Positions 6,452-57,842 of a stretch of 64,000 nt of DNA are shown one piece after another. This stretch comes from Sthenelais limicola (Eukaryota; Annelida; Polychaeta; Phyllodocida; Sigalionidae): assembly GCA_942159475.1 (NCBI GenBank), contig OW804095.1:53038773-53102772 (forward strand). Direction: 5' to 3'. The notes below the pieces were generated by a model. That model was not told the origin of the DNA. It saw only the letters and a program-made list of their open reading frames with translations, and searched no databases. Position 1 is the stretch's first letter, and each line of letters opens with the position of its first letter. Both the position numbers and the translations under genes were made by a program.

Positions 6452-9400
6452 TTAGAAAAAGTCCGCCATTCCTTCTTCCAAAAATCGCTTGTAGATGGAC
6501 ATGAATTTTGCAACAAAGGCTTCCAGATGATAAATTTGCTTCTGGCCCAGTTGAAGGCGGTGTTCATAGTATGCAGCTACTTGGGTGACTTCCGATTTCA
6601 ATTGGCCATCACAGTTGGCCACTATCTCTTGCAGAAGGCCCTTAATATGGATGGAGAAACAGAATGAATATATAATATAATTAGTAAGTGAGAGAGCGTA
6701 AGATATTGCGAAAAATATATTGAAACCGCTGCAAATCATCATTCTACAAGAATGTCCACCCCTACATTAATCCAAAGTCAAGAAATCCGTCTGTATTATC
6801 ATTGTGAATATTTGGTCTAAAGCTTTCAGCAAAGCTGGGGAAAAGCTTTAACTTGGAGTAGAATTTGACAAAGTAATGTGTCTCGCACCTTCATTATGAT
6901 GTCAGCAGGGATACAGTGTGTGAGAAGCTCGTAAATTCGTCCTCGGATCTCAAGTAAACTGAAATAGATATATGCAAGAACATGATTAAACAGTGCTAGA
7001 TCATCACTTAAGTCGGAGATTGGGACGAAACTATTAACTTCAGATGAGCATTATCCATTTGTCAACATCTACATATATAGCGCATGGAGGCCAATTTAAT
7101 CTCTGTAACATAACACTATTATGCACCTACGGTATGGAATGGATTCACACCCATCTAGCCCTCCCCAATAACCCTCTATAATATAATCTACTCACGGAAA
7201 AGGGGGGTCTCATACTTTAGTCTAATTAAGTCAATTAACCATTCATTCCATATCTTCCGTTAACAAACAGTTAGAAAACTTTAAAAACAGTTAACAAATT
7301 TAAAATGGTACGAACCGCTGAGGACTTTGCTGTTGAACAATCATACTTGCTGTTTCTCTGAGAAAGATTTCCCAATCAGGTTCAGTCACTTCTTGGTTTG
7401 GAGTGAATGGATATCTAAAGGCGAAAACAAATACTGTACTTCCTCGTATTTTATTTTAGTGCCTTGGCTTCTCACGCCCAACTTTATACACAGGATTACA
7501 AACGAACCAGGCTTAGATTCACAGTTGAGAACTACCGTAAAATCTACTACTTAAAAACGGATGCGAGTCGGGTATGGCAAAACAATCTGAAGTTTTTCTG
7601 AGGTCCAAACGGAGGTATACACACCCGAAATCATTAATAAAGGACTCAATAAAACAGTGAATACAAAGACTGAAAGAGGCAGATGCATAGTCAAGCCGAC
7701 GATGAGCTATGTTTAAAAACCAGTATATATGATCTTGAATTATACAGGTCTAACCTCAGAGAATTGACGAACTCCTCAAAAGGATGTATGTTTAGGATAT
7801 TAAGAAGTGCATTCACTTCCTATACAGACATTCCCTCTGTGGACATTTCTTCATATCATTAAAACAACGTTATAGAAAAGCAAGAACGATTTCGTTTACT
7901 TACTGTTGGACTTTACAAGCCTCTGTCATTAGAAGGGCACGTCGCAAATTACGTCCACTCTTGGTGGCGATTCTTTTGGCTAATTCAGGAGGTAAACTGA
8001 GACTTTCCTTCTTACATATTTGTATAAGAATAGATGTTATCTGTAAGAGAGATGGGTATTTATGTTAAGATTTCCCCCAAATACCTACAGGCGGATATTG
8101 CGGTGTAAACCAATTTTGTAGGATAAGGGCCTTGGATTCAATCATATCTTAAGACTTTATTAAATTGAACGGTGTGTCCGCTATGACGTGCTACCACAAA
8201 GTGAGTCAAACGCTCGTACGACGTGACGTCAATAATTCTATGACGTAACTGAAACACCTCAAATTAAGGATTTTGATTGGATTATGCTCATTTGGTTGCT
8301 AATCTCAGTCCCTATACCTGGTTACCTGTTGTTTGTCAACAGACGGTTGGGTATGGTGGCTTAAGAGTTTTAAAACTGAATAAAGCCAATGACTGAACCA
8401 TCAAACCGATTTAAAGATTTCTTTTTGGCTGGGAGTTAGTAGTTTAATAATCTCAATATTTTAGATATACAAGATTAGATTAAAGTTTTTATTTCAATTT
8501 TGCCAATTTGAAAAGGACCGAATTTCCAGAGTTACTAGTGATTTTAGGGGGACTATAGTTTTATTTATTCTGGGGAAAAAAATTAAGACTTTATTAAAAT
8601 GTGCATTTCGTTATTTGGTCTTTCCTATTAATGTTTCAATTAGGGCATGGACAATTGTTTAACCATCACGAATGATTTATGTGGTTAGAATTAAGCCAAC
8701 CACCAAACCCGATTTAATGCATCTGAGATGAACATTTATAAAATATAGAAATAAACGGGAGAACACCATATATATTTAAGAACACTGAAACACGCCTTTT
8801 AGGAATCACTAGCTTTAATAGTGACCATAGGATTACAAGTGCAGAGATACGTACTTCTTCTTCTGAAGGAGCTGCAACACGAACACCCAAACAACGAGAC
8901 CTGATTGCAGGGATTACTTTACTCGTGGAGTTACAGCAGAGAATAAGACGACAAGTGGATGTATATTTCTCCATGGTGCGACGCAGTGCATGCTGAGCAT
9001 CTTTGGTTAATCGGTCAACTTCGGACAGAATCACCACTGAAAGAATATGAAGTATTTCGTTAAACTTGATAACCAGTCATACATATATTAGATAACAGTT
9101 ATAATTAATTATATTAGGTGTAGAGACAACGCAGACGAATGCTTTGGCTGTGGTTGTTTTACGCCCTCAGCAACCGTCAGTCATATCGACGGGCCGGGAG
9201 GGGGATATATTTGATTTTACTGATTTCTCCCCAATGGTGGAAATGACCATGTTTGTATGTGAGCATATTAGACAATTCTTGGTGTAGGCTTTAAGTTTAC
9301 TGTATTTTGAACTGGAACTGTAATACAAACTGCGCTTGTATTACATAACTTGAGAAGTTATGATACCACAGTAACTTGTGCCACACCGATTTTAGGAAGT

Positions 9401-11805
9401 GGGAAGAACTGGACATGAAATACGTATTAAATGAGTTTCACTTACGTTCCACGCATTTAGTAAAAAATACATAAAACTACCTTTGAATTCTTTTTGCGAA
9501 GATGTCTCTAGCTGGTGGGATTGAGCCGTGGTTTTTAAAAGTTCCTGTATCACAAAGCGATCATGGATGCCAGCATCACTATTTTAAAAAAAATATAAAC
9601 AATATAAGTACATTGTGCAATGTGTCAATCAAGGTATACGTATAAGAAACTGGATTAAAAATAAAGAGTTGTGGATCTCTATTACCACTCGATATTGTAA
9701 AAGTTTCCTTTATCTTATTTTAATTCCTCTTGAGACTTTCTATGATTATCTGCAAGGTGAACTACAAAAAGAAGTAATTGAATATATTAGAAGTTTGTGA
9801 CAATTTGTTCCTGAATTTTTAATTGCTGAAAGTTAAAATTGGACTCATTCCTTCCCAATATTGCTTTGTTTTTTTCTCATTGATCGAAAGGTTACTGCAC
9901 CAGTTCATCGCTAAATAATCCCTAGAGTGAGTGAATGAGTAATGGTTGCTTAATGCTGCGACGACCTAAAGATTTGCTACGTTCATTTATGTCAATAGTT
10001 AGTTGTTCCAGCAGTATTTTTTACTTAGGTTTAGAATTTGAGAAATAATGAATTTATTACCAATTAGTTTCATTGCTTTATTCTTGAGTAGCGTACTTTT
10101 AGTTATTTAACCTATTATAGATAGTACCACAATAATGAATAAAGCCAGCTTTGTCCATTATTCATTCCACTCTTAGATCTAAAATATCTTGTGGATTGGG
10201 GGTACGGTGTCACACTAATGATTTAACCCAGTTGGTCGGTTGGTTTTTATTTCCAGTAAAGACTAAAGTTTTTGTTTCAGACTTGTTACGAACCATTTCT
10301 TCCGGGGTTTTGGATACATAAAGAATTATATTATAAAATAGTTATAAGATGAATCAGACCTAAAAATAGTCGTATACGTCATGATATCGTATATAGTTGA
10401 TATAGTGCTGAAAGAAGGCTTTATAAATGCTTGTATTACTCAGATATGATGCTGAAACATGTTTATGCAGAATAGAGCTGCTGCTTGGAGTGTATTGGCA
10501 TGAGATTAAGACGCAAATAGCCTATTCGGCCGGTGGTTCTTACAAAGGGGAGACATGCCTTCCTCGTTATCTCAATACGAGCTGGCCTGAATTAAGCCAA
10601 CGGTCGACGGTAACAATATAACACCGTACCTTGGGTTGACTTCAATGTGGTAGTTGCTTCCAATGGTGGATATTTCAATTTTTTTCTTTGATGGCATAGT
10701 GAATGTATGATGTTCAATTCTAAGTTTCTCTATACCAGGTCCATAGAGTTCTCGAAGGAGACAGGTTATCCGAGTTTTTTTCCCGGCGCCTGAAGGCCCA
10801 TAAACTAATAGATGTGGAAAATCACCACTGTTGATCTGGAAAGACATAAGTGTACATCAACTATATTTTGGGTGAATGTAGATGGTCAAAGAAATAATAC
10901 AACTTTTCCCATACAAAAACAATTCCCCCCACCCCCACCCCAAGTCGTAGTTTACAGATGTAGAGCTAAGTTATGTCGTCATGCACCCATGCCATGGTGC
11001 TTTAAAACTATAAATCGTCAATTGAAATAAAATGGGGAAAACAAACAAGAGCAAGACATCTTTTGTTTGAACCTTAGAATAATGCCATGGTCACATTTGA
11101 TTTGTCAAATAGAAACTTCAATGTCTTTTTCAATTGATTTCCTGAATCCTGTCTATACATACATATATATGTTACATTGTATATCATATGTATCGTCAAA
11201 TTAAATGAGAAGACAAAATGATTGAAAAAGATAAATGACTCAAATTAGACTTATATACCAAATTTTGTTCATATTTAAAATAAAAATTTCCATATTTTAA
11301 ATTATCGGTTGTGTCACATAGAGACTTCATTGGTTAAATCCTATCATTAATACTATCAATCTGTCACCATTCCTGACGTCGTCGTCAGTGACAGTGTCAG
11401 TGACTGACGAGTGACGATCGACCCTCTCTACTCTAGGTCAAGAGCGGTATCATGATTGAATCATGGTTACATAATGGTCAATATGACAATAAGGTCTAGT
11501 CAGCCCCTGCAGCTTTTTCACCAGGGAGTGTAACCAGCGCTATATAGCCCTCTGAGCTGCCTAGTGGGGCCTAGGGCTAGCCAAATCAGTACTTCGTAAA
11601 AGTCTGGGACTTAGAAGTTAGAGCGCGAACCAAATAACCACTCCATTATCGCCTATAGGCTAGCTCCCCAGCTAAGACACACTATAATCCGATTGATTAG
11701 CAGAGATTTTAAACATACCAATTTTTTTAGATGCGCTCCTTGATCCTTGTGATAATCTAATTTCGACAGAGAGGTCGGACGATGCTTGTCAACCCACAAA
11801 CTCAT
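6452..11805 (-). CDS. RFC3: Replication factor C subunit 3 (clamp loader ATPase)
   Basis: Eight exons, in order on the - strand: 11805-11719, 10835-10630, 9578-9481, 9036-8855, 8040-7904, 7414-7316, 6958-6889 and 6640-6452. All have AG/GT borders and matching phases. They total 1068 nt, or 355 residues plus TAA, almost exactly the length of animal RFC3. The start [10 protein letters not shown] matches the family N-terminus. Walker A is GPSGAGKKT at residues 42-50. The Walker B-like SEVDRL and the sensor-1 stretch [10 protein letters not shown] lie in exon 4, followed by the SRC motif IRSRC. The C-terminal collar ends [21 protein letters not shown] and then VAKF. RFC3 works in the nuclear RFC1-5 complex, which opens PCNA and loads it on primed DNA, and in the alternative clamp loaders. 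No damage is seen, so this looks like a functional gene. Introns 1-3 exceed 400 bp and hold no recognised genes. Confidence 0.97.
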
Positions 11806-12606
11806 CGTGATAATTTTGAGACGAACAAAACAAAACACTTCGCGCCAAGTAAGCCGAAGGAAATGGCGTTTCGGAGGTGAGAAAAAAGGTAAAAAGTGTA
11901 GGCCACACTTGGTTGCAACGCGTATTGTCCAATCAGAAGCCGTGCCTCATAATCGCAAGACGACGTTTGACAGGGCTATTTTGCCGTTCCTTCACTTTAT
12001 AAATACTCGTTGTTCCAGAGCTATGATTATTTAGACCAGTGAGGTATAAACTAAAATGTAACTCCCTGTTCTGACTAAGAAAGGTGGTAAGGTTATTAGC
12101 AATTCTAGGCCTATTTTTTGTGTTAAGGGGCTGTTCATTTTTAATCACTGACACTGCAGGAGGGGGGAGGGATTTTCAGGCGGGGAGGGGGCATCTTTTT
12201 TTTAACTGAGTCTGAAGGGGTGGGGGTACACCTTTTTTTGCACAAACTCTGAAGGGGGATGGTCATCCTTTTTTGGACTCTGAAAGTGGGGGAGGCGCCT
12301 TTTTTCTTCTTTTTTTTACTTAAAGCTGCTCTCCCAGCTATTTTCTATACGAATCTCAAATTTCACTTGTTTAGCTCACAAATAGCCTAGGCCTACCCTG
12401 CTCCACCTTGTCCCAAGCATTTGGGTCTCTTTCTTAATTAATGTTGGAGTTTAATATTTGAAAAAAAATATACTCCTCCGATCTGGTGTACACCCTTACC
12501 GGTAGGTCTACTGGTCCTGTCTGTTAGGTTGCGACCTGCATAGCCTCGTTGCACTCCCATAGTCTTAGGATCTTTACGAAAGCACAAAAAAGTTTCATAT
12601 ATAACC
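11806..12606. other. RFC3 upstream region and G/T-rich repeat block
   Basis: The first 350 bases should hold the RFC3 promoter. A candidate inverted CCAAT box (attgtccaatcag, 11925-11937) is visible, but no TATA box. Bases 12150-12320 contain about three degenerate copies of a 40-50-bp unit in which CTCTGAAGGGGG is followed by a T run. A related piece (TTTTTTTGCACCAACTCTGA) recurs at about 26398-26417 beside a G run, so this is a dispersed repeat. From about 12430 the sequence is probably the 5' UTR of the following element. Confidence 0.45.
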
Positions 12607-14310
12607 ATGGAATCTCCTGGTATATTCGAAAGATTGAAGGTTGCTGTTTTGGGAGAAAAATTCGCAAAAGAAAATTCACCGCAGCGGACGACTGGGAATA
12701 ACGGCCATGAGGACGTCCATGAAGAAGGCGACTCAGCGGATTGTATTTCGGTCGAAAATTTGCTAGATTCGGTAAAGAGGATAGGAATTACCATAGATAA
12801 TGCACTAGAGGTAGCAGAAGAAAACGAATTATCTATTGAAAGCAAATTCGAAGATATAAGGATAAATCTGTCCGTTGAGTCAGAAAAATCAGAGATTCAA
12901 GAAGTTATGGAAAGCTCCGCAGTTTCATCAATGGAGGTGGGTGGAAAAATTCCGAAAATATGGGAAGACCTGAATAAGAAGATTGATTTAGTAGAAAATG
13001 GTTTTGCAACTTTCATAAGGAAAGTAAAATCAGATATATTTTGCATGGAAAGAGATTTCGGCGAATATGCCTGGGGTAATTCCAACTCTATAGAAGAGTT
13101 CAGTAGGAGAATACGTATGCTTGAACACGACGTGGCTACTCTCAGGGAGGTTGGAAAATATCCGCAGAAGTTAGATCAATCTCAGAAGATAAATCATGAA
13201 ATAAAGAAGGGGAAAATAGTCTCAGAAAATGATCCAGATATATCAAATGAAAAAGCAAGGAAAAACATGAAAAAAGAGGGTAGAGAAAAAGTCAGAAATA
13301 GCTCAACGCAGGACAAATATTTAATCGTCGAAGGGGTACCAGAGGAGTGGGAAAAATTCAACTTAAAATCCCAGGCAGATCTTCTAGCTATCAGCGCACG
13401 TAGCGACAAAAATGAAAATTTGAAGGGAAAAGCAGTAGAAATATTTCAAATTACTGACTCATCTCTAAAAGAGGAAAATATCGTAACAGCTTACAGAATA
13501 GGGAAACCTATTTTGGGAAGGAAAAGAGCGATTTATATTGAGTTGGATACATTGGAAATCAGACTGAAAATGATCAAAGTTAGCCGTAGAATCAGAATGA
13601 ATAAAGAATATCGAAAGGTATGGTTGAATAAATTCAACAAAGTGACGAATGGGTACCAGCTAAAGCTATTGGGAAACACAATGAAACTTCTGTCGTTGAA
13701 CAAGATTGAGGCACAGCTTGTCGTTAATCATATCAGAATCAGTGGGGAAACGTTCGCAATACAAGATCTACATTTTTTGCCCGATGGATGCAAGCCAGAG
13801 AACATATTTCACGTGAAAGTAGGGGAGGAAGGCATAGGCTTCAAGGGTGAATTCAGTTATTTGTCGAACTTTTACCCAGTAAGATTTGAATATGATTCCC
13901 GTATGTTTTATTCGGTCGAGCACTGCTTCCAAGCCGTCAAGGCGGCAAGGAACGGTAATTCCAAAATGGCGGAGTTGATAGCAACCGCACAACACCCAGC
14001 GGTTGCTAAGCATCTAGGTCGCAAAATCCAAACGGATAAAAATTGGAGGGAGACCGAAATAGACATTCTAGAGGAAATCGTATTCCAAAAGTTCAAACAA
14101 ACAGATGATATTAGATTGAAATTATTAGCAAATGGCCAGAAAAACTTTTACGAACTTACAACATCCCGTAAATGGGCGGCCGGCATAGTACATACAGAAG
14201 TGAAAATCAAAGATGGCGCATGGATACATGTCGATGAAGAAAAGGTCGTAGGAGACAACGAGTTTGGTAAAATATTGAAGAGAGTACAGGCCAAACTAAT
14301 GAAATTATAG
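12607..14310 (+). CDS. Retroelement-like ORF1: coiled coil, RRM-like region and NADAR domain
   Basis: A single intact 567-codon ORF. Residues about 40-230 are acidic or basic helix with likely coiled coil. Residues about 236-390 run DKYLIVEGVPEEW, then ENIVTAYRIGKPILGRKRAI, then a basic helix. This is the layout of the RRM and C-terminal domain of L1-type ORF1 RNA-binding proteins. Residues about 411-540 are a NADAR (YbiA/DUF1768) domain: FSYLSNFYPVRFEYDSRMFY, then YSVEHCFQAVKAAR with the conserved Glu near residue 438, then SRKWAAGI with Trp 523. NADAR enzymes are N-glycosidases acting on riboflavin intermediates or ADP-ribose adducts. Here the usual WG after the late Trp reads WA, so activity is uncertain. 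The ORF ends 24 bases before the SGNH ORF, suggesting one transcript. The link to a mobile element is inference. Confidence 0.8.
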   Translation: MESPGIFERLKVAVLGEKFAKENSPQRTTGNNGHEDVHEEGDSADCISVENLLDSVKRIGITIDNALEVAEENELSIESKFEDIRINLSVESEKSEIQEVMESSAVSSMEVGGKIPKIWEDLNKKIDLVENGFATFIRKVKSDIFCMERDFGEYAWGNSNSIEEFSRRIRMLEHDVATLREVGKYPQKLDQSQKINHEIKKGKIVSENDPDISNEKARKNMKKEGREKVRNSSTQDKYLIVEGVPEEWEKFNLKSQADLLAISARSDKNENLKGKAVEIFQITDSSLKEENIVTAYRIGKPILGRKRAIYIELDTLEIRLKMIKVSRRIRMNKEYRKVWLNKFNKVTNGYQLKLLGNTMKLLSLNKIEAQLVVNHIRISGETFAIQDLHFLPDGCKPENIFHVKVGEEGIGFKGEFSYLSNFYPVRFEYDSRMFYSVEHCFQAVKAARNGNSKMAELIATAQHPAVAKHLGRKIQTDKNWRETEIDILEEIVFQKFKQTDDIRLKLLANGQKNFYELTTSRKWAAGIVHTEVKIKDGAWIHVDEEKVVGDNEFGKILKRVQAKLMKL

Positions 14311-15109
14311 ACTCAAACTGTATTATAGATCAACATGGATTTACTGATTGTGATGGATTCGAGAGGGATTGGCATGGGAAGGAGAATTCAAGACAAAATG
14401 CCAGGGTTACGAACGAAGGTCATAGCGATAAAGGGGGCTACAATCGAAAGACTGGTGACTGAGTCCAAACCTATAATTCAATTACGGAGACCCAGATATG
14501 TATACATCGTGGCAGGAATATGTAATATTACGGTAAGATCATATGTGAACCCTGGAGAACAGATACAACTCAGACACACGTCAAATGCATTATTTGAAGA
14601 CGAGATCAGTAGAATCATGGATAATGCGGTACAGGGGATAAAAGATGCTGCTATAGGAACACATCAACCGAAGGTAGCAATAGCAACAATGGCTGGTGTT
14701 GATCTACGTAAATACAATGTTCTTCTTGCTAATAACAAAGGAATTCTCTACCCTCGACAAAACCACTATGGGGAAATGCAACAAGCATTAAACGAACGTG
14801 TGACAATTTTTTCACAGCTAGCAAAAAAGAAAAATGCAGAGGAGGGGGTACCTACTCCCTTTGTGGCCCAGTCCATACATCGCTGCAAGGCAGGTAACAA
14901 GAAAAACAAAGATGGGAAGTCAAAATATTCAGCATTTTACTCAAGATTACCCAGGTAACAAGTAACGTTAAGTGAACGTTGGCTAACGTTTCTTTAAGGT
15001 GGATATTGCCAACGTTGGGAAATAAACATTTTATTATCATTTTTTCAACGATGATTTTCAAACTGTTTTTAACCCAACGTTTATTCAACCTCAAGTTAAC
15101 GTCAGAAAA

Positions 15110-15760
15110 TTTAACGTTTTTTCAAAACGTTAAAAAAACATTAAAAACACGATGGATAAATGGATCCCTTTTTACAGACGTTGAATCAACATCTGAAATA
15201 TTAACGTTTTTTCATAGAGATTAAATGTCTGTGAAATAAACGTCGGTAGAATCAACATCTTTTCCCCAAACGTTGTATTAACGATAGCAAAATGAATGTA
15301 ATGAGCCAGACGTTTGATTAACGTCTGAAATATCAACGTCTTTCTATAAACGTTAAATGTCTGTGAAAAAAATTTGCTAGAATCAACATTTTCCTTCCAA
15401 GCGTTGTGTCAACGTTAGCAAAATGAATGCAATAAGCCAGGCGTTTGATTAACGTCTGAAATATCAACGTCTTTCTATAAATGTTAAATGTCTGTGAAAA
15501 AAATTTGGTAGAATCAACATTTTCCCTCCAAGCGTTGTATTAATGTTAGCAAAATGAATGCAATAAGCCAGGCGTTTGATTAACGTCTGAAATATCAATG
15601 TCTTTCTATAAACGTGAAATGTCTGTGAAATAAACTGTGTCTGAATAATCTTCTTTCTCCAAACGTTGTATTAATGTTAGCAAAATTAATTCAATAATAG
15701 AGACGTTTGTTTAACATACATTATCAATGTTTTCCTGCAGATATTAAAAAAATGTCATAT
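15110..15760 (+). repeat. 131-bp tandem repeat, about four copies
   Basis: The marker GAATCAACAT recurs at 15249, 15380 and 15511, and degenerately (GAATAATC) near 15643, a period of 131-132 bp. Units carry GTTTGATTAACGTCTGAAAT and several AACGTT boxes. The array lies just inside the left end of the 7-kb element. Confidence 0.85.
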
Positions 15761-15842
15761 AAAGGTTGGTTGAATAGGCCTAATCATCTTTTTCGGTCAA
15801 GTATCCCTCAATTTATATATATGTAATAGTCAACCCCAGGTA

Positions 15843-17242
15843 TACCATGCATATGCCTAGACGTTCTCTTCTCAATCCTTTAATTATGACAAAGGTTGTT
15901 TAGGCGAATATACATATTCATACAATAGAAGAACTACTCTAGATTTAAAAGAAACCAGAAAAAAATTCCTATCGACTGCCATTTTCTGTTTATCAATGAA
16001 AGAGTAAAGAGACATATCCTATAGTGAACTTTTCTGCATACCATGCATATGCATCTTACATATCCATATCTCAGCAAGTTACCATATTTAACTATGAACA
16101 TTTATTCACAAGTTGGGCGCTTATTCAAGGTTATAAACAAGATAGCTCCCGTTTATGTTGTCAAAACACATTTAAAATAATTAAGATTGTTAGAAACATG
16201 CCATGCGTATGCCTATACCATATAAAGGAGAAATAAGAAATATCAGACAAATGTACATCATATTCTAATCAAATGTAACTATAAATGCTATGGCATCCTA
16301 GCCACTTTAAGTGATGACAGAAGTTATGACAGTCAGACCTTACGTAAGTGGTCTATTTTTCTATTTAATCTCACCCAGATATAAGTTTAATATTCTATAG
16401 TGCTACCAATGATAATCCTAGATTATCTGAGTAGGCAAAGAATAATAATGATAACGAATAATAGGGCCTAACAATCTCAATTGCTGAGGTGTAATGATAT
16501 AGTATAGGGGTAGAATTTACAATTATAGGCTATGTTGATAAGGCCAACTATCACTGATTATATAATAATGCAATATAAAACAATAAATCACCAATGAATA
16601 TTCAATACCCAAGTATCTAATGCACTTGTCAATTGCAACCCCCACTCTGCCCTGCCCCCCGCCACACCACCCCTGAGGATGTGGGGGAATGTCCTTGGCC
16701 TTTGGGAAATTGTATGAAATCCCCGACCCCCAGGGCAATAAATTCTTGTAAATGCCCGACCCCCCTGGGGCACATTTTTCGGTGGACATAAACTATTATT
16801 GCAAAAATATAAGGGCCATTCTCAGAAGTCTTGCAAATGGTGTTTTTGGTCGAAATATATTTTTTAATTTTCATTAATCAGATGAATGAATTCTAAACAT
16901 TCAAAACATCTGTCACAGAATATAAATGCTAATATCATATTATATATAACATTATATATAACTCAACTACACAATATAGGAAGGGAATACTTATTTGTCA
17001 TTGATATGGAGAGGTTAATCACGACTTAACATATACTTAAAATACAATGATTGCCACAAGGAAACACCCTCATTTCGAATCCATAGTTATTATTTAAAAT
17101 CAATTTAATCAAATATATGTTTATCTGGGACAATGATGCATATATATGTTTATCATATAATGAAAAAGAAATCAAGATTAGAGTAGACTGATTTACTAAA
17201 ATTAGCAAAAATTAGAATAAATCACATGGCATATGCATGGTA
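15843..17242. mobile_element. 1.4-kb nested TA-flanked element
   Basis: The ends TACCATGCATATGCC (15843) and GGCATATGCATGGTA (to 17242) are perfect 15-bp inverted repeats. Each is bordered by TA (15841-15842 and 17243-17244). TACCATGCATATGC recurs internally at 16038. A GC-rich block with repeated CCCCGACCCC-like pieces lies at 16640-16785. No transposase was recognised. Confidence 0.6.
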
Positions 17243-18934
17243 TACTGACAATGGGCTTCATTTGGCCCATCTCCTATAGCTCAGTAAATACCCAGAGATA
17301 ACCTTATCAATTTATGCACAAAAACCCCTCAAAACTTCTAGTTTCCTGATGTAACAATTGTTTCTGATTCAGATCTATTTGAAAAATAACTTGATGTTTA
17401 ATTTCTAGCCAATGTTCATGAATGTCTGCACAAGTCAAAATCGATCCCCAGATCTCTCATCATTGAACATTGTCTATTTCGTATATTCTCATCAATCCAA
17501 AAAGTCATCATTAATCAAACATCTATTAGAAATCTTAAATTAGGTATCCATAGAAAAACCCCATTGAAGACCCATTGAAGACTAAAAATTATCTTAAATA
17601 TGGATATTGTATACTGAATGTTTCATTATGAAAAAAATAGACATATTAAATCTGCATTCACAGCTTCTATTATATCATTTATCAGTTTATACAAGAATCT
17701 GAAGTCAAATAAGCCAAGAGAAGGCACTCACTGAACTAGGATATAACATTATCCCAGTTGTACTCAATGACTGGAGGTTGGTTCTAGGAAATGGTAGGAA
17801 CTGCAGACAAGTTTTAGCCCCTTCACTCTACATAGACTTGCCCAAGGTCCTGATCTTAGTTGTGCAGATTAATCATATATATGACCGATTTTCATGAAAA
17901 TTGGTAGGTAGCTTGAAAACTGTTTGAAGATACATAAAAAATAGAATAGAAAAATAGAATGATATATATTGCTATTCTTTTCTGAACATAGTACAGCATT
18001 TTCCCTATGTTGTGGCACAAATATTCAGTCAAAATTATCATAAACTCCTGCATTTCTTAAGATCACATTTTCATGTTTTTTACACTTCACCAAACAAATT
18101 GTTTTTCCAGTTATTTTTCATCTGGATTATAAAGTTTGAAATGACATGAGTTAATTATTATAAGGCGAATATTAGTTGATAATTTGAAATATGCTCAATC
18201 TGATTTCTTATAACCAGTTTTTAGACACTGATAATGGTATTAATTATTTCAACCTTTTTTTGTTCTCAAAATTAAAAACATTCCATTGTGAGAAATTCGA
18301 GAAATAAAACTATTGGAGAAAAGAAATGATAACTTAATTACTATCAAAGAGCAAGTGATTTAATTTTATGTATATTGTAGATATTATAACCTTAACTACC
18401 TATAACCTTAATAAAGCAAGGTAACCTGGATGTACCTAGTAAAGATAATTTATATTTGTAGTTTCATGTAGTTTAGTTTCTTGTTCTCTCATTTTGTTGA
18501 CAAAGCTTGCTTGAAGCATAAAGGGTATCTTAAGTTTAACAGTTACTTTCCATTGATCGGAATGTAAATAGTTAAGTTTCCATAATGAACTGAGCCAACA
18601 GGCTCCTAAAACGAATAATCTTTGAGACATGTGCCAAGTCTACACTCCTTCTAACACTTCCACCCACACCACTACCTGTGGTCCATGACCATATCCTGTA
18701 GGACCCTCCCCTGCCTCCACTCCACAAGTGGTCATGGCAGGGGCTGGTCTACTCTTTAGTTGCTACTGACTCCCAGATATTTACATATTATCCCAGCCAG
18801 AGGCATCTTCTCTGTCCCAGCATGGTAAGTATTTATAAGTATTACTTTGATTTTAATTGCTTTCAAATTATATGAAGTTTATGAATTCATTTAAAGTACT
18901 TACTTATATAATGTAATATATTGTAAATTAATAC
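17243..18934. other. AT-rich interior of the 7-kb element
   Basis: No coding sequence was recognised. A small GC-richer patch at 18640-18830 ends with a strong donor-like string (CATGGTAAGTAT at 18823-18834), which may be chance or a captured gene fragment. The rest is featureless AT-rich sequence. Confidence 0.4.
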
Positions 18935-21085
18935 TGTCTCTCTCTTTCTCTCCCTTCCTCTCCCTCTTTCTCTTTCCCTCTTTCCTTTCTTTTCCCTTCT
19001 CTCTCACTTTCACACTCTCTCTTTCTCTCTCTTCTCTCTCACTCTCTCTTCTCTTCTCTCCACCTCTCTCTCCTCTCTTTCAGCTTCCTCTATCTCTCTT
19101 TCCCTCCCTCTCACTTTCATAGTCTCTCCTCTCTCTCCCTTCGTCCCTCCTCTCTCTCTCTCTACTCTCTCCTTGCTCTCTCTATCTCTCTTTCTCTCCC
19201 TTCTTCCCCTCTCTCCTTCTTTGTTCTCTCTGTCTCTTCTCTCCTTCTTTCATTCTCTCCCCTCTCTCTCCCTTTCTCTCTCCTCCTCTCTTTTCCCTTC
19301 TCTCTCACTTACACACACTCTCTCTCTCTATTCTCTCTCACTCTCTCTCCTCTTCATGATCATCTCTCTCTCCTCTCTTTCAGCTTCCTCTTTCTCTCTT
19401 CCCCTCCCTCTCACTTTCATAGTCTCTCCTCTCTGTCTCTCTCTCTCTTTATCCCTCCTCTCTCTCTCTTTATCCCTTCTCTCTCTCTCTCTTTTCTCCT
19501 TCTTTCATTCTCTCATCTCCCTCCTTCGCTCTCCTTGCTCTCTTTCTCTGTCTATCTCTCTTTCTCTCCCCTCTCTCTGTCTCCTGCCTCCCCTCTCTCT
19601 TTCTCTATCTCTCTCTTTCACTCTCTCCCTGTCTCCTTCCTCTTCCCCTCTCTCTCACTTTCGTACTCTCTTTCTTTCTGTCTCTTCTCTGTTCTCTCTG
19701 TCTCCTAACTCCCTCCCTCCCCTCTCTCTTTCTCTCTCTGTGCCTCTTTCTCAATATCACACACACTCTATCTCCCTCCTTTCTAAATGTCTCCCCTCTC
19801 ACTCTCTTTCTCCCTCCCTCTTTCTCTCCTCTACTGAGAGGGCAGCTTTAGGACAAGGGGGATTAAATGTTTTAAAAGAATTGGCTCAAGGTGTGAACCA
19901 AGCTGACATACATGCCAAGTTAGTACACCTGTTGTCACTGATTGACCTGGTATACACCAGGATGTGGTCTTAGTGGTCTTATAATGGGTGGGAAGAGGAA
20001 CCTCAGGAAGTGATTCACCATACTGCAGACAAGCTCCCTCTGCTGTCTTCATGCCTCTCTCTCCCATTTTCTCTTCCCTCAATTCCCTCCCTGTTTGGCT
20101 CTCTTCTCCTCTCTCCCCTCTTCTTTGCCTCTCCCCTCCCTTTCTTTTTCCTCCTCCCTCTCCCTCCCCTCTCCCCCTGTCTGCCTCTCTCTCCTTCCTC
20201 CCCTCTCCTCCCCTCATTCTGTGCTCCTGCCCCTCTCCCCCTGTCTCGCTCCCTCTCTCTCAGTTTCCCACCTTCCCTCAGTTTCCCCTCCCCATTGTCC
20301 CTCCCCCTGTCTGCCTCTCACTCCCAACTTCACCTTTCCCCTCTCCTTCCCCAGTCTGCTACTCTGCTACCCTCTTTCCCTCACTCTGTGCCTCTCTGCC
20401 CCTCTATCTCCTTTCCCTATGTCTCCCTCCCTCTTTCTTTGTTTCCCTTGCCCTCTCTTTTTCTCCCTCTCTCCCTCCCCTCTCTTCCTCTACTGTATCC
20501 CCCTCTCTCTGTTTCCTGCCCTCCCCCTCTGCTCAGCCCCCCTCTCTCCTCCCTTCCCATTTCCTCCCCTCTTTCTGTGGCTCTCCATCCCCCTCTTTCT
20601 ATTTCCTGCCCTCTATGTCTGCCTCTCTCTCCCAAGCTCTCTCTTCGTCTCTCTCTTCCTCCCCTTCCCTCTCCCCCTGTCTGCCTCTCTCCTTCCCTCT
20701 TCCCTTCTCACTGTGTCTCTCTGCCCTTCTCCTTTCCTCTCTATCTCCCTCTCTCTCTGTGATTCCTCAATCCTCACAGTCTCTTTCCTCCACTCTCTTC
20801 ATGCTTCTTTCTCCCCTCTCTCAAATACACACATTATATCTTTCTCACTTCCCTCCCTCTAACTTGACCCTCTTACTATCATTCTCTCCCCCAGCTTTCT
20901 GTCTCCATTTTACTCCCTCCCATTCTTTCCTTCTGTTGTTTATTTCTTTCTACCCGTCCTCTTTCTCTTGCCCTCTCTCTTATTTCTACCCTCTGTCTGC
21001 CTCTCTCCTCCCATCTTTTCACCTCTCTGTGCCTGTCTGCCCCTGTCTCTCCTCCCCTCAGTCTCTCCCTCTTTTCCCCTTCCTC
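18935..21085 (+). repeat. About 2.1 kb of polypyrimidine (CT-rich) sequence
   Basis: The + strand is almost all C and T in (CTCT)n, (CCCT)n and (TTCT)n variants from 18935 to 19830 and from 20040 to 21085. It is broken by a mixed-sequence island at 19835-20040. At 21090-21182 the bias flips to purines (GAGAGACAGGCAG repeats). Long open frames here are products of codon bias in simple repeats, not genes. Tracts of this type can form triplex (H-DNA) structures. Confidence 0.95.
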
Positions 21086-22092
21086 GTTGGATAGACATGT
21101 GGGAGAAGGGAGAGACAGGGGAGTAAAGTGAGAGACAGGCAGGGAGAGAGACAGACATGTGAGAGACAGGCAGTGAGAGAGACTTTAATACTGATTTTAA
21201 TACATGTATATAATCTTTTATATTATATAGGTGGTGTATGATCGTTCAACAAGAAGGATCCTGTTGCTTAATTCAAGGCAGCCATATGGAAAACAAAAGC
21301 TTTGAGGAGGCAAATAACATCCCATGAAATGGAATATATATTGGAAAAGAATTGATGAAAAATGATGTTTACCCAACATTAATAAAACGTTTATATGCCC
21401 CTTGCTTTAACGTTAATTTATGGTCTAAAGTAAAAATGAGAAATAATCAATTTGATGTAGATGCAATGTTTATTCAACAAAGAAAATAACGTTCTGAAAT
21501 AAAGACTATTTAATATTATTTTAACGCTTATACCAAACATTATTTTAATAGATTCTGAACGTTTTTATAACGTTATTTTGAGGTAAATTTGTAAACTGGG
21601 AAACGTTTATTCAATGGTTTTCTTAACGTGGGTTTTACATCAATTTCAAAATCTAAATTATAATGGTAAAAACGTTTTGATAACGTTGTCTTGAGTCCAC
21701 GCCATTTAACATCAAAATAACCATCAATCTGAATGTTATTTTGATGGAGTCCAAACGTTGATTTGATGAAGAATCAACATCAATCTTTATGTTATCTTAG
21801 CGTGGGTTTCACATCAGTTTTAAAATATTAGATTACAAACGTTGAAATAACCTTGTTTTAACATCTTAAAAAACGTTAAGAAAAACGTTAGTAAAACGTT
21901 GTATTGAGTCCACGCCATTTCACGTCAAAAAAACCATCAAAACTAATGTTATTTTGATTAATTCCAAACGTTGATTTGATGAAGAATTCACGTCATTTTG
22001 TTACCTGGGTAGCTGATGATGGATGCCATCTATCGGAGATGATGAAGGAGGAATATGCTGTGCAAATTGCCAAAGCGTATCAGAAAAGTTAA

Positions 22093-22670
22093 AAATCTAA
22101 AAATGAAATATCTACTATCAAATTCGGGCTGTATGCTATTTTGCTGGTAAATACTGAACTCAGTAGAACTATCTCAGTTCAGTCAAATATATAATAATTA
22201 TGAGAATTACCTCGATATTATATGCATTATATTATAACAAGTAAAATAACCTGTGATATTATATGCATTATATTATAACAAGTAAAATAACTTGCTGCCT
22301 CGCCTATAAAAAGTGCTCACTCATTTGTATTTGATTTTACCCACATGTTTACTTAATAGCTAAGACCACTGCCTAGCGTGTTCTTTAGCCTTATTGCTAT
22401 AAGCTGTGATCCTCGATCACTTGTTAACTCTCGATAATGTCAGTTGATTTCTCACTTAATTAATACTTCATCATGTCCATTAATGTAATTACTCATTTCA
22501 TAAACTACTATGTTAGCGTTAAGTTTCACGCGTTTTTATTGTAACAACATTCAAAGACCATACGTCGGCAGTCATAGGAAGACCTGACTTTTTTGCCTCA
22601 GAATTGACCGACCCATTGTAGCAACATCCACAATAAAGAATTTTTGAATTTGAATTTGAATTTGAAGTTC
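22093..22670 (+). mobile_element. Probable 3' UTR and tail of the NADAR/SGNH element
   Basis: Downstream of the SGNH stop the sequence contains AATAAA (22633-22638), followed directly by a (TTTGAA)n microsatellite to about 22667. CR1/L2-like LINEs end in exactly this way, with a signal then a short tandem tail and no poly(A). If this is the end of the element, it carries no reverse transcriptase and is about 3.2 kb without the insertion. The link to the upstream ORFs is inferred from order and strand only. Confidence 0.4.
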
Positions 22671-22952
22671 TAAGTCGAGCTAGATCATATTCAACCATAT
22701 GGTCAATTATAGACTTAGAAATAATATGAATACAAGGGGATAGCTTCCTGTGATCCTGCACCCGGATTATTATAGTTTCCTGGAATTTGTATAAGAAGGG
22801 TGTAAGGTGAACATCAGAAGCTTATTCCACAGATTTATGTACGACTAGTCACTTTACTTGTCACCTTAAAAAGCCTATAACATCTGGACTATCTTAGTTT
22901 CCTGGAATTTTGATAGAAAAGATGAAAAAGGGTGGCTTAAGGATGAATGATA

Positions 22953-23174
22953 ATAAGATTATTTATGTTGGAAGACATAAGAGACAAGTGTTATGACAAT
23001 ACAGTTTTCAAGATTAAAATATTACTTCGGTAACGACTTAATCTATGAACAGTGAATATTTACATAAGATTATCTATGTTGGAAGACATAAGAGACAAGT
23101 TTTATGACAATACAGTTTTCAGGATTAAAATATTTCTTCAGTAATAACTTAATCTATGAACAGTGAATATTTAC
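22953..23174 (+). repeat. 111-bp tandem duplication
   Basis: ATAAGATTAT followed by TATGTTGGAAGACATAAGAG begins at 22953 and again at 23064. The two copies differ at a handful of positions, so this duplication is older than the one at 777. Confidence 0.88.
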
Positions 23175-23678
23175 ATCGTGCAAGTGCAAGAACTATGAAT
23201 GACAGCCGAATCTGATCACTTTTACCTGGACTTGAAGGATTATCATAGATAATCAAATTATAAATATAAAAGTAGTATCATAATTATTGTTATTATATGT
23301 TATGAACAGAGGAGAAGTGTCGTTTGATGTCGGTAGATAGGAAGAGTGAAGAAATGAAGAGAATGAAGACAGTGGGATCGCATCACCATATATATATTAT
23401 GTGATATTATATGATTTACTTAAAAATGTTGATCTAAAAATTAATATTATAATGCTATAATCCTGTTGTATTATGTAGTAAAAATGATGTCAATGTAGGT
23501 AAATGGATAAAATGTATATAATAGAAACGAAGGTTGTGCTTAGAAAATATATAAATATATTATATGTTAATTATAATTAGTAAAAGATCCTATGGGGAAA
23601 TATGAGTTTAATTCAATATATATTGAATTGGACTTATATTTTTACCATATTGTCACCCAGAAGGGTTATTAATAATTA

Positions 23679-24831
23679 TTGAGTTTCTCAAGAGCTTTAC
23701 TAGCCATGTGTACAGTAAATGAAAAGGATGTAGGTTTGTTCAAAGGTGTATCACTAATTTCCTGGAACATAAGAAGCTTAAGACCAAAAATATTTGGAGT
23801 TACTTCTATGGTTTATAATACTAAACCAACAGTAGTAGCTATACAGGAAACATGGTTAAATAATAACACTGCAGATTCTCTTATAGAGATACCAGGTTAT
23901 CAAATATTTAGAAAGGATAGAAAAGGGAAGAAGAAAGGGGGAGGGCTTGCTATGTATATTCAGAAAGATGTTAGGATAGACGACAAGGAATATAGTAGTT
24001 TTAACACCTCAAACAAAGATGTAGAAATACAAGTAATATCTATAAACCCTGGTAAAGGGAAGAAAATAATTGCTGTCAATGGGTATAGACCCCCAAATGG
24101 GACACTAGAGAATTGTAATAAGCATCTGAAACTGGTGTTGGAAAATCTAGATAAGAAATGTGAAATTATAATATTGGGAGACTTTAATTGTGATTTTAAT
24201 GAGATGAAAAACGCAAGTAGTACTTCTCAGATGGGAGAGCTACTCGGGATTTTTATACAATGTGGAGTTACTCAGCATATTAAGAGCAATACACGGATAA
24301 CAAGCAAGTCCTCAAAAACAATTGATTTAATTTTAAGTAATAGCAATAAAGTAGATAAAAATGGAGTGATAAATAATAATTTGAGTGATCACATGCCAGG
24401 TTTTATTGTATTGAAAAAGGAACGAACAAGGTATCAAAAAGTGAGTTTTGAAGCAAGAGACACAAGGTACTATGATGAGAAAATATTGAAGGAAATATTA
24501 GAAAATGAGGATTGGACACAGTTTTATCAGACCAGGGATGTAGATATGGCCTGGGATTTGTTATTTGGGAAAATAAATCACTTCTTAAATAGAATGTGTC
24601 CGGTTAAAAGTTTCAAAAAACGAGGAAAATTTAGATAAAAGAGAAATTAACTTAAGATTCTTAAATGGAGGTAAGAAATTGAAAACCATAACTCCCAAGA
24701 CAGAGATGATTAAAAGGTCATTTCTATGTACAGTTCCTCAATTATGGAATGAACTTGCCCCAGAGCAGCAAAATATAGAGGGAATTAAGGAGTTTAAAAT
24801 GTTTCTAAAACACAACTATCAACCTGTGTAG
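23679..24831 (+). pseudogene. LINE endonuclease joined to RT C-terminus by internal deletion
   Basis: The ORF 23679-24638 (319 codons) is an AP-like endonuclease: SLISWNIRSLRPKI, VVAIQETWL, GGLAMYI, IILGDFN, then TIDLILSN and LSDHMPG. These include the Glu, Asp-Asn and His residues of the fold. It is followed by the usual linker up to CPVKSFKKRGK. Instead of fingers and palm, the next bases (24639-24831, +1 frame) encode only the far C-terminal end, including SFLCTVPQLWNELAPEQQN, with stop TAG at 24829-24831. About 500 codons of reverse transcriptase are missing, so this copy cannot move itself. The type is CR1/Jockey-like. The start codon is uncertain because coding sequence may begin upstream. 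Confidence 0.85.
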
Positions 24832-25440
24832 TATGTTCTTGTATTAAAATATATGTAATACTTAATAATTATCAAATATACATGGTAACTAATGTATATG
24901 TGATAATAATATGATTGTAATATGTAATGTAATGTAATGTGAATTTGTAAAAACATCAATTTGGGATGTTCCAGTTCATACATATTATAAACACTTTGTA
25001 ATATGTTATCTATATTGCCATAATGTGAAATGGTAAAAACTTCAAATTTAGGATGTTCCAGTTCATAACATCTATATAAACACCTAAATTATTGGTGTAT
25101 AACAAAACAAAAAACAAAAAATGTTCACAGCATCTAGTATAGGATGTTGTTGATCATATTGTATACAAAAAAAATGATTGGCAACACTTCTGCCAAAATT
25201 CTCAAAAAAATGTAATATAATAATAATATTATGAAGCATTTTGTAAACATAATAAATCAGCTGTATGTTAAGATTAAGATTATATTTGATTTTGTTAGTT
25301 TAAGGGTACCTGGGAAGATCAGGATCTATTGGAGATGCTGAGAGGACCACCCTATTTCATAATATCGTATTGTAATGTAAAACTAAACTGTAAATGAAGT
25401 GTAAATGTACAATGAAATAAAGTTATTTATATATATATAG
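24832..25440 (+). other. 3' UTR of the deleted LINE
   Basis: AT-rich, with an imperfect tandem repeat sharing GGATGTTCCAGTTCATA (about 24963 and 25051). It ends with AATAAA at about 25416 and a short TA tail near 25440. No genes were seen. Confidence 0.5.
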
Positions 25441-36838: not shown

Positions 36839-38599
36839 ATGGCAAACAACGAGGGAGCCTCCAAAAACCTATTTAATTTCCGGTTTCTGATGTGGACCAT
36901 TTTCCTAACAACAGCAGCTTGCATTGTTATTGTTATCACATTTTCTAATAAAGATTTCTCACGGTGGAACCAACCAGAATTTAGAAATGTTCAACTTGAG
37001 AACAGCAGTATCAGCAAAGTTTTGAAAGTCTTGAAAGCAGTGCATAGATTGGTCACTAAGGAAACAAGGACGACATCTGGCTTGTCAAAAGAAGGAACAG
37101 CTCAGTTGCTGGAGCTGATCAACCCAGTCCTGGAAACATACTTTCCAGGGATTTCAAAAAGAGTCACTGCTTCCACTAAAAGCAAGAACTACACCCTGTC
37201 TAATGTAACAATCCTCTTAGATTTCACTAGACATGCAATGCCAACTCGTATTGAAGGTGCCATACAACAAATTAAGAAACTCTATCCAAATACAACAACA
37301 ATTATTGCAGTCAACACTTCAAAAGAGATCAACAAAATCATAGGAGATTCTAAAACCATCCATAGTGTCGAAATATCAAATCCATCACCTGCATTGAAAT
37401 GGAAGAAGCTTCTTTCGATGACAAATACCTCTGTTGTTCTCATCGGTAGGGAAATCATGTATGTGGACAATGAGACACAATTGCAAAATTCCCTATCTCG
37501 TCTTGTATCTATGAATGTTCCTGTAGTTGGTGGGGCATACAGGTTTGCTAATGGCTACTGGTTCATGGGTTGCCAACAGAGCACATTGAGAAACTATACC
37601 CTCATCTACACCTCAGGATATCACAAATCTACATCGAGCTGCCTCTACTGCGAACATGTGGACGGACCATTTCTCATAGTCACCCAACTATTGAGAGACA
37701 TGAAACTTGATGATGGACTGTTGAAGGAGGACTCCCTATTCAGAGATCTTTTTCTTAGACTCAAGTTAAAAGGATTAACGCCTGCTGTGTGTCCATTTTC
37801 TATGTTCCATGTCAATGACCGACCCACGGCCTTTTCTGTGGATTCTTGGATTAACCTTGCCAAGAAATGGGTGCTGCATTCTGTAAGAATCGACTCAACG
37901 GCTATTCATATACCCTGCAATATATACAAATACTCATGCGGAGGATCTGGAAGCGGTAAAAGCCTACACCCTTGCTGCATGGAAGACCTTTCTCAACAAA
38001 TCAAATTCCTAATTAAGACCTCACAGCAGAATGGGATAACTAGTGCTCTATATGCAGGTACGTTATTAGGTGCCATGAAGTACAGCGGAATCATACCGTG
38101 GGAATTAGATGCTGACATCTTATTCTACAACCCTCCATCCAATATGACCAGCTACAATACGGCTAAGACACTCGGGCCAATATTTAGCAAGGCTGGATAT
38201 AAGTTAATAGATACAAGTGGAACTTATAAATCATTCGCTTTGCACAAAAAAGGCTCAAACTGGAAGGTGGAATGGTTTGGGGGTTTTCATTTTAGAGATA
38301 TTGGGTGGGAGGAGCGCAACCCTCGCTATTCCTCTCTTCAGCTAGAACCAACCAAAGTAAACCTTGATGGAGAATGGTTAAGAACTACTGCAAATCCAGG
38401 CTTTTCCATGTGGTTGCATTACAAACCCAGCATCTACAAACATTCTCAGCATAACAATAACTACGGCCTGGGTTATGCAGCCAAGTACAAGCCTCGATCA
38501 TGGGTTCCATGTAAACAGCCAATATTAGGCCAACATAACTGTTTGGTGCAATATTCAACTGATGGGAATATACAATTTCAAGATGACCTTTTTCACTGA
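36839..38599 (+). CDS. FKRP: FKRP-like LicD-family ribitol-phosphate transferase, type II membrane protein
   Basis: A single-exon ORF of 586 codons. Residues about 16-35 (FLMWTIFLTTAACIVIVITF) form a signal-anchor, giving a Golgi type II topology. A stem and N-terminal domain follow, with several N-glycosylation sequons (NYT, NVT, NTT, NTS, NET). A zinc loop with C360, C367, C379 and C380 matches the C-x6-C plus CC layout of fukutin-related protein. The LicD/nucleotidyltransferase core begins at residue 407 (GTLLGAMKYSGIIPWELDAD), with acidic residues E422, D424 and D426. FKRP adds the second ribitol-5-phosphate to the matriglycan core of dystroglycan. Whether this is the strict orthologue or a paralogue is open, since it is longer than vertebrate FKRP (495 residues). 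The ATG at 36839 is the first in frame. Acceptor-like sites at 36650 and 36732 suggest a spliced 5' UTR. The stop overlaps a LINE target duplication. Confidence 0.85.
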   Translation: MANNEGASKNLFNFRFLMWTIFLTTAACIVIVITFSNKDFSRWNQPEFRNVQLENSSISKVLKVLKAVHRLVTKETRTTSGLSKEGTAQLLELINPVLETYFPGISKRVTASTKSKNYTLSNVTILLDFTRHAMPTRIEGAIQQIKKLYPNTTTIIAVNTSKEINKIIGDSKTIHSVEISNPSPALKWKKLLSMTNTSVVLIGREIMYVDNETQLQNSLSRLVSMNVPVVGGAYRFANGYWFMGCQQSTLRNYTLIYTSGYHKSTSSCLYCEHVDGPFLIVTQLLRDMKLDDGLLKEDSLFRDLFLRLKLKGLTPAVCPFSMFHVNDRPTAFSVDSWINLAKKWVLHSVRIDSTAIHIPCNIYKYSCGGSGSGKSLHPCCMEDLSQQIKFLIKTSQQNGITSALYAGTLLGAMKYSGIIPWELDADILFYNPPSNMTSYNTAKTLGPIFSKAGYKLIDTSGTYKSFALHKKGSNWKVEWFGGFHFRDIGWEERNPRYSSLQLEPTKVNLDGEWLRTTANPGFSMWLHYKPSIYKHSQHNNNYGLGYAAKYKPRSWVPCKQPILGQHNCLVQYSTDGNIQFQDDLFH

Positions 38600-48800: not shown

Positions 48801-48920
48801 TTTACCACTAGCCTTTACATCATCAATCATGTTACAAAACAATGTCTTAATATCATGCCAGAAAAATTTATAGAATTCGACGGTCAAGAGAGTTATTTTG
48901 TAATACACAAGAAGTCTGGT
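45898..48920 (-). mobile_element. L1/Tx1-like LINE, 5' truncated, frame-broken
   Basis: A poly(T) run at 45898-45912 is the tail. The - strand reads, 5' to 3': LTVEFYKFFWHDI and VSVIPKKE with NWRPITLLDVDYKI (48905-48545), DFQKAYDTISWEF and GVKQGDPISPFLF (48541-48240), the active-site YADDT (about 47670), the thumb and connection region (47640-46561) and a zinc-knuckle-like PYCEYRDKIDLIDHFF near 46450. It ends with the same terminal region (RIILAAKVYIHRQRIF) as the other L1-like copies, stop at 46070. Frameshifts lie near 48530, 47380 and 46390, and a MITE separates the palm motifs. This copy is dead. Confidence 0.9.
47673..48229. mobile_element. 557-bp MITE inside the RT palm, before the YADD box
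   Basis: TTGAGGACGGG (47673) and CCCGTCCTCAA (to 48229) form 11-bp inverted repeats. The sequence GCAGCATCCCGTCC occurs three times at the right end (48122, 48170 and 48212), two of them preceded by the palindrome CTGCCTGCAGGCAG. On the - strand the LINE frame stops matching just after HKIIS and resumes at YADDT on the other side. Confidence 0.82.
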
Positions 48921-52755: not shown

Positions 52756-52893
52756 TTTTTTTTTTTTTTTAAAACAGCTTTATTCAATATGTCAACAAAT
52801 CCTGATTCTCTGGGTCGATAACACATAAGATATACATCGAACCCTTTTCCACTCCGTAGGTAAACCATATTCAATACGATGAGAGTGAACCTA

Positions 52894-55391: not shown

Positions 55392-55952
55392 TACATATTA
55401 GGTTTTTTGATGGGGAGTTTGTTAATACAATATTTTCATAGGTAATGGTGGAAGGATATTAACCGTTTTGTTCTTTTAAACTACTTATATCAGCGTGGAC
55501 CTTTCTCCAGGCCTTTTTCCACTCATTCGAAGTATTTGCTATTTTATTTTGATATAACACACTTCTACACCTGCTATCTAGATCAGCAATAAGGTGATTA
55601 AACACAAGGTCACCGTTGTAAAACAATTTCTGCCTGTGAATAAAAGATTTTACTTGCAGTATGATCCAGTTGACTATTTTTTCTCTGATGTTGTTAGAGC
55701 TCATACCGAAGAGGATATCCTCTGATTTTATGATTACGTTGTTATTCTGTATTTGGAACATTGGCTTGTCATTTCTTACAGAGTTAAGATGAGACATTGA
55801 GCATATACATTGGATTATGTTTTCCCATAGCCTTTTAGTTTTGGGACAATCTACTAGAAAGTGGCGAATGTCATCTCTCTTGTTGCAAAAAGAACATGTA
55901 TTTTCATCGATAATCCTTTTGTTTTTCAAGAACTCGTTACACGTGATTGTTC

Positions 55953-57797: not shown

Positions 57798-57842
57798 TTT
57801 AACGTCTAAAATTTCTCAAGCAACATATCATCATCTCACCTA

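Follow-up and report, generated by a model that had tools for sequence, protein, structure and literature searches.

No hydrolase family other than the NADARs is reported to take ADP-ribose off guanosine in RNA, an activity shared by the C7, T4 and Escherichia coli YbiA enzymes and highest for C7 (PMC11833690); NADARs also act on guanosine-ADP-ribosylated DNA (PMC11543638, PMC11125620), while their roles in eukaryotes, animals included, are stated to be unclear (PMC11125620). Among retroelements, a YbiA-family NADAR has been reported on the first open reading frame (ORF1) of several Tx1 long interspersed nuclear elements (LINEs) of the oyster Crassostrea gigas in Repbase, and also on Gypsy elements of the brown alga Ectocarpus (PMC12477816). 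This was the one relevant paper found in the open-access literature on NADAR or YbiA with retrotransposons; the main text of a survey of 448 Jockey-superfamily ORF1s (PMC4120745) names neither. The subject here is an element in a stretch of 64,000 nt from the polychaete Sthenelais limicola (contig OW804095.1; the window, G000:C2:53038773-53102772 in our coordinates), which was compared with the whole genome of 1.13 Gb in 161 contigs. An open frame of 567 codons at 12607-14310 of the forward strand is the ORF1 of a multi-copy, three-ORF LINE retrotransposon, of which it encodes the first protein. A NADAR on a LINE ORF1 is thus already known; a first-pass annotation, made from the letters of the window, knew of SGNH and PHD domains on LINE ORF1 proteins but not of NADAR. 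New is the arrangement in three ORFs, in which an L1-like ORF1 bears the NADAR and an SGNH-fold protein has an ORF to itself.

With the oyster elements, the one described here shares a YbiA-family NADAR on the LINE ORF1 of an aquatic invertebrate; compared by description only, the oyster elements are assigned to Tx1 and no SGNH ORF is named for them (PMC12477816), whereas the worm element has a GVPQGTALGPLLF motif in its reverse transcriptase (RT) and an AT-rich repeat at its 3′ end. The Ectocarpus case is likewise a NADAR on a retroelement, but one with long terminal repeats and with the domain at the N-terminus of Pol (PMC12477816). Human LINE-1 ORF1p, a type II ORF1, has the succession predicted for the worm protein, a coiled coil with an RhxxhE motif and then an L1-type RNA recognition motif (RRM); it differs in lacking the NADAR, and Pfam Transposase_22 is not matched in the worm protein. 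The SGNH esterases of CR1, L2 and RTEX LINEs, exemplified by ZfL2-1, share the fold, the same Ser, Gly, Asn and DxxH blocks and a spacing of 30 between the Gly and Asn blocks with the worm protein; there, however, the esterase lies inside an ORF1 without a structural RNA-binding domain (PMC3905857), and in the worm element it has its own ORF, next to an ORF1 with an RRM. The DarT1-linked NADAR antitoxin and YbiA agree with the worm NADAR in fold and catalytic residues, but are stand-alone bacterial proteins, while here the domain, with the YbiA-type Glu, is fused to a retrotransposon protein.

A LINE with three open reading frames in many copies

Searched against its own genome, the ORF1 protein gave at least 79 matching rows (77 of 5143 first-look candidates were scored, so that this is a lower bound); copies in number had been proposed as a check by the first-pass annotation, and the result rules out a single-copy host gene with introns. 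Thirty-six loci represent 32 distinct copies, at least 21 of which have ORF1 open over more than 450 codons; by motif counts, which are floors, at least 21 have a frame bearing the start of ORF2, and at least 19 of these also have its DGCH block. The RT ORF of copy L035 in turn gave at least 47 rows (46 of 29903 candidates scored), 45 of them spanning at least 926 of 984 residues at 54–100% identity. Comparison of 48 of the 79 ORF1 rows with the 45 ORF3 rows gives no fewer than 24 places where the two lie at most 5 kb apart, on one strand and in the right order; both matches are free of stops in 21 of the 24.

The element was read from 10-kb stretches of six copies (L031–L036), further stretches fixing the 3′ ends. 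ORF1 with its NADAR is followed by ORF2 (about 234 codons), a spacer of about 1.1 kb, and ORF3 (about 980 codons) with an apurinic/apyrimidinic (AP) endonuclease and RT. All three ORFs are complete in L032, L035 and L036; the end of ORF3 is altered in L031 and L034, and in L033 it runs past the end of the stretch. The element extends over 7,331 bp in L032 (2407-9737) and 7,222 bp in L035 (from 2877 to the point equal to 10098, ending in L043). ORF1 and ORF2 are separated by 21–39 nt in L031, L033, L035, L037 and the window (24 nt in the last), and by about 260 nt in L005 and L008. Pairs of copies are nearly identical within the element and lie in unrelated flanks: L031 and L032 agree at 99.6% over 6655 nt, L035 and L036 at 99.5% over 7131 nt, and L033 and L034 in two blocks at 99.2 and 99.4%. 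At the 3′ ends, AATAAA is accompanied by a short repeat of ATA or TA and not by a long poly-A. At the 5′ end, several diverged families (L009, L013, L014, L016, L019, L020, L028, L029, L037 and others) start at or near GCGGGAAA, possibly the shared promoter start of these LINE families.

ORF2 encodes a protein with an SGNH-hydrolase fold, recognised by a fold search of its predicted structure. By sequence, the best Pfam match to SGNH among the four ORF2 proteins scanned was at E 0.067, in one of them; the PDB profile search gave nothing useful and the protein-database search no relative. Residues S9, G34 and N64 are present in 10 of 10 rows, and D209 and H212 in nine, the exception being the window copy, which is cut by an insertion. 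ORF3 matches Pfam RVT_1 (8.4e-38 and 7.7e-38) and Exo_endo_phos_2 (9.2e-12); since its last ORF combines an AP endonuclease with an RT, and since copies in unrelated flanks have common ends, the element is an APE-type LINE. Among solved structures, its RT comes closest to human L1 ORF2p (E 1.5e-19), ahead of 8gh6 (3.4e-11), which we take to be R2, and of the entries named R2 (best 1.5e-7), an order that does not separate the Tx1/L1 from the CR1/L2/Jockey clades. The RT motifs, GVPQGTALGPLLF and FADD, together with the AT-rich repeat tails, would seem to fit CR1/L2/Jockey better than L1/Tx1.

The NADAR domain of ORF1 and its relatives

Frame reading confirmed the intact 567-codon frame of the first-pass annotation, and the NADAR placed there by eye at residues 411-540 is found by Pfam at residues 415-564. 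It is the sole domain in the Pfam scan of ORF1 (PF08719, 79.7 bits against a cut-off of 35.1, E 3.9e-22), and a sequence comparison with solved structures finds just two relatives, the NADAR 8bau (E 8.8e-15) and YbiA of E. coli (2b3w, E 6.7e-5). Chance or an artefact of reading by eye is ruled out as the source of the call by the Pfam match and the genomic copies. The profile is matched by all 14 rows of an alignment of 13 of the 25 ORF1 proteins (below 96% identity) and P0002, the one relative of the window ORF1 found in the protein database (7995 candidates scored).

A NADAR fold is present in the structure prediction of ORF1 as well, and the active site, mapped via the 8bau alignment after PMC11543638, keeps its catalytic residues; a comparison of the active site with that of YbiA had been suggested in the first-pass annotation. 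E43 of 8bau (C7 E88) corresponds to E438 of the window ORF1, K50 (C7 K95) to K445 and E125 (C7 D171) to E516; E438 and E516 are found in 14 of 14 rows, and K445 is Lys in 12 and Arg in two. The last-strand residue, E516, is thus Glu and not Asp or His, which gives a YbiA-type set. The ADP-ribose pocket residues K468, G471, W480 and W523 are kept in all 14 rows, and in alignment A3 (11 rows, with other lineages added) E438, K468, G471, W480, E516 and W523 never vary, while at least 90% retain K445. Used as a query on the protein database, A3 retrieved no entry, not even its own row P0002, so that this negative carries no information. The WG motif is indeed WA in the window ORF1, its second position being Ala in eight rows and Gly in six. 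Between the window copy and L002, dS is about 0.53–0.60, and dN/dS amounts to 0.14 in the NADAR, 0.12 in the RRM and 0.23 in the N-terminal part; 12 pairs were run, several of which were unusable (few changes or saturated dS). The ORF1 NADAR is a member of the YbiA family and is predicted to be catalytically complete.

Ahead of the NADAR, the structure model of the window protein has a long helix (pLDDT about 45–68) and, in this protein alone modelled, a recognisable L1-type RRM. All 13 of 13 host rows have an RhxxhE motif at one and the same column of the alignment, whereas on shuffling 8% of the N-terminal parts contain such a motif at any position.

A Pfam NADAR search of the host genome gave at least 150 places, 150 of 150 scored lying above the cut-off (5561 first-look candidates); the NADAR of the window is absent among these best 150 rows. 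In the stretches long enough to tell (L031–L040, chosen and not random), a NADAR ORF is followed by an endonuclease-RT (EN-RT) ORF in 10 of 10. L037, taken from the ORF1-protein match list, has the same three ORFs with broken ORF3 frames. L038, L039 and L040 are other NADAR-LINE lineages of the same genome, with ORF1s of about 600–690 codons: L039 combines a long-tailed NADAR ORF1, an SGNH-matching ORF2 (E 4.5e-13) and an EN-RT ORF, and in L038 and L040 NADAR ORF1 and EN-RT follow each other, with no SGNH ORF match within the stretches read. Three further NADAR places (G000:C1:94855254, C1:89380390 and C1:66983187) have open frames of 162 codons and possibly represent a stand-alone NADAR family.

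RT and NADAR identities are correlated across seven elements (Spearman 0.73, 21 non-independent pairs), and 18 LINE NADARs, among them that of P0002, fall together with support 0.94, apart from 27 viral NADARs; the latter come from 80 loci, of which 28 were chosen and one, without the motif, was dropped. Since RT and NADAR identities rise together and the LINE NADARs form one group, the data fit a single capture of the domain, apparently inherited thereafter, within the sampled elements. A viral element as carrier was rejected: the best 80 of 192 IMG/VR relatives match the NADAR region alone (query residues 375 onward, 80 of 80), and tblastn of ORF2 and ORF3 against these 80 gave no match.

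The copy in the window and its surroundings

The retroelement extends beyond the ORF1 that was first annotated, as the SGNH-fold ORF2 and the endonuclease ORF at 23679-24638 belong to the same element; the 319-codon endonuclease ORF, about 9 kb downstream, is assigned to it because the window ORF3 keeps the endonuclease and the last part (Table 1). The RT domain between these two is deleted. The endonuclease matches Exo_endo_phos_2 (5.4e-15) and Exo_endo_phos (7.3e-13). The 5′ edge is the start of homology to L002 and L012, which share 87 nt more upstream; the 3′ edge, AATAAA and (TA)n as in the tails of other copies, is placed by resemblance only. ORF2 is broken at 14949/22010 by an insertion whose 10-bp ends (CCCAGGTAAC/GTTACCTGGG) are perfect inverted repeats, with a duplicated TA, and across whose site L002 and L012 are continuous with a 2-base overlap.

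Table 1. Features of the NADAR-LINE copy in the window
Feature	Coordinates	Strand	Extent or basis
Whole LINE copy; 5′ truncated by ~87 nt, two insertions, RT deletion	12567..25439	+	homology to L002/L012; 3′ tail resemblance
ORF1: predicted coiled coil, L1-like RRM, NADAR	12607..14310	+	567 codons
Predicted long coiled-coil helix; RhxxhE trimerization motif at residues 168-173	12955..13203	+	residues 117-199
L1-type RRM and following C-terminal region	13312..13779	+	residues 236-391
NADAR domain	13849..14298	+	residues 415-564 of ORF1
ORF2, first part: SGNH-hydrolase-fold protein, Ser, Gly, Asn blocks	14335..14949	+	
7,060-bp insertion splitting ORF2, not part of the LINE	14950..22009		inverted ends, TA duplication, minisatellite
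ORF2, last part: DGCH block (predicted catalytic Asp and His)	22010..22092	+	tblastn of L031/L034/L035 ORF2; reading
Second insertion, ~461 bp, in the ORF2-ORF3 spacer	22211..22671		gap in L002 and L012 alignments
ORF3, 5′ part: AP-type endonuclease	23706..24638	+	Pfam; 52-55% identical to ORF3 of L031, L034, L035
ORF3, C-terminal remnant	24628..24828	+	tblastn, residues 909-956 of L031 and 911-987 of L035

No coding frame was recognised in the larger insertion, which has TC-rich tracts and, at 15175-15715, a 131-bp minisatellite; in L011, a similar CCCAGGTAAC start is found directly 3′ of ORF2. The smaller insertion ends in a short repeated TTTGAA-like tail and is perhaps a short interspersed nuclear element. 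Beside the LINE, exon-like pieces at 8714-9037 and 10572-10847 (reverse strand) resemble, by eye, replication factor C subunit 3, and an intact frame of 586 codons at 36839-38599 (forward strand) is weakly matched by LicD (E 1.7e-5). Other LINEs have left remains at 48296-63117 (reverse strand), several broken pieces of EN and RT that are 26–38% identical to the NADAR-LINE ORF3. At 57846-61714, also on the reverse strand, an RT with weak RNase H matches (59226-60839) adjoins a phage-integrase-type recombinase (57846-58997), presumably a DIRS/Ngaro-like layout.

Possible roles of the NADAR in retrotransposition

Most likely, and with about an even chance of being right, the ORF1 NADAR strips ADP-ribose from guanosines in the RNA or new complementary DNA (cDNA) of the element and thereby protects retrotransposition. 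The ORF1 protein would trimerise and coat the LINE RNA as L1 ORF1p does, which would concentrate the NADAR locally where its substrate is; there it would remove ADP-ribose from guanosines of the element's own RNA or cDNA, so that a presumed modifying enzyme, of the host or of other origin, would fail to block retrotransposition. The SGNH protein of ORF2 may, as has been suggested of the L2 esterase, help in membrane or ribonucleoprotein (RNP) handling, and ORF3 would nick the target and reverse-transcribe. The interference with host ADP-ribosylation suggested in the first-pass annotation is, likewise, something we infer; the active site is conserved.

Several results weigh against such protection. 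The LINE-ORF1-type layout that had been proposed stands as regards the L1-like fold ahead of the NADAR on a mobile retroelement, but not as regards Transposase_22, which none of the 14 members matches at E ≤ 0.01; in the comparison with the L1 C-terminal domain (CTD), L1 rows align just to residue 344 and Foldseek gives about 205 columns at a high root-mean-square deviation, and P0002 is without the RhxxhE motif. RNA packaging therefore rests on the predicted fold. In the active site, two phosphate contacts of 8BAU are lost (the equivalent of R79 is Arg in one of 14 rows, that of R93 in none), and target-site duplications are unclear, with an 8-nt candidate in L032, an ambiguous, repeat-rich flank in L009, 7 nt at most in L035 and none in L036. 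A Scabin-like guanine ADP-ribosyltransferase was not found in the host genome, in a search whose control was silent too. YbiA of E. coli is weaker on RNA than the C7 NADAR (PMC11833690), and some NADARs hydrolysed guanosine-ADP-ribose in vitro without rescuing cells from DarT1, so that NADAR activity need not equal protection (PMC11125620).

The residue set, with E516 in 14 of 14 rows, is of the YbiA and not of the DarT1-linked type, and two phosphate-contact arginines are gone; together with the N-glycosidase roles mentioned for some NADARs (PMC11125620), this would suit an enzyme acting on a small molecule or a free ADP-ribose or NAD metabolite, as has been proposed for YbiA in riboflavin synthesis, whose place on ORF1 is incidental or tunes local metabolites. 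We consider this improbable, as the domain immediately follows an RNA-binding-like region in the compared lineages (the RRM being modelled for the window protein alone) and E. coli YbiA itself de-ADP-ribosylates guanosine RNA (PMC11833690). The strictly kept pocket (K468, G471, W480 and W523) would equally serve a domain that binds ADP-ribose, or ADP-ribosylated protein or RNA, without cleavage, a tether or reader directed, for example, to PARP-rich RNP granules. Such binding modules occur among macrodomains, but the catalytic residues are as strictly kept as the pocket (E438 and E516 in 14 of 14 rows, K445 as Lys or Arg in 14 of 14), which binding alone would not need, and a mere reader is accordingly unlikely.

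Nicks from LINE insertion recruit ADP-ribosylating repair enzymes, and NADARs are active on guanosine-ADP-ribosylated DNA, as cited above; the domain might thus clear ADP-ribose mainly from insertion-site DNA or DNA-repair targets during target-primed reverse transcription, and not from the element's RNA. To this we give little weight, since L1-type ORF1 proteins bind element RNA and the DNA step is that of the EN-RT protein. Finally, the ORF1 of the window is intact next to a split ORF2 and an RT-deleted ORF3, with low dN/dS to L002, as if co-opted as a host gene that stays open while the rest of its copy is broken. This is very improbable indeed: ORF1 and ORF3 matches, both without stops, follow each other at no fewer than 21 other places, L032, L035 and L036 have all three ORFs complete, active LINE lineages should in any case differ from each other with a low dN/dS, and the endonuclease part of the window ORF3 is likewise still open.

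The numbers in this genome, with at least 150 NADAR places and an EN-RT ORF behind the NADAR in all 10 chosen stretches, suggest that retroelements select for the removal of ADP-ribose from nucleic acid, and complete copies are at hand for a direct test. Some animal proteins with a NADAR or YbiA annotation may accordingly come from LINE ORF1s rather than be host enzymes. More tentatively, and with a rather modest chance of being right, guanosine ADP-ribosylation of RNA or cDNA might be an unrecognised anti-retroelement defence of invertebrates, countered in this radiation of LINEs by a particle-borne ADP-ribose eraser; if true, this would be the first known anti-ADP-ribosylation armour of a retrotransposon.
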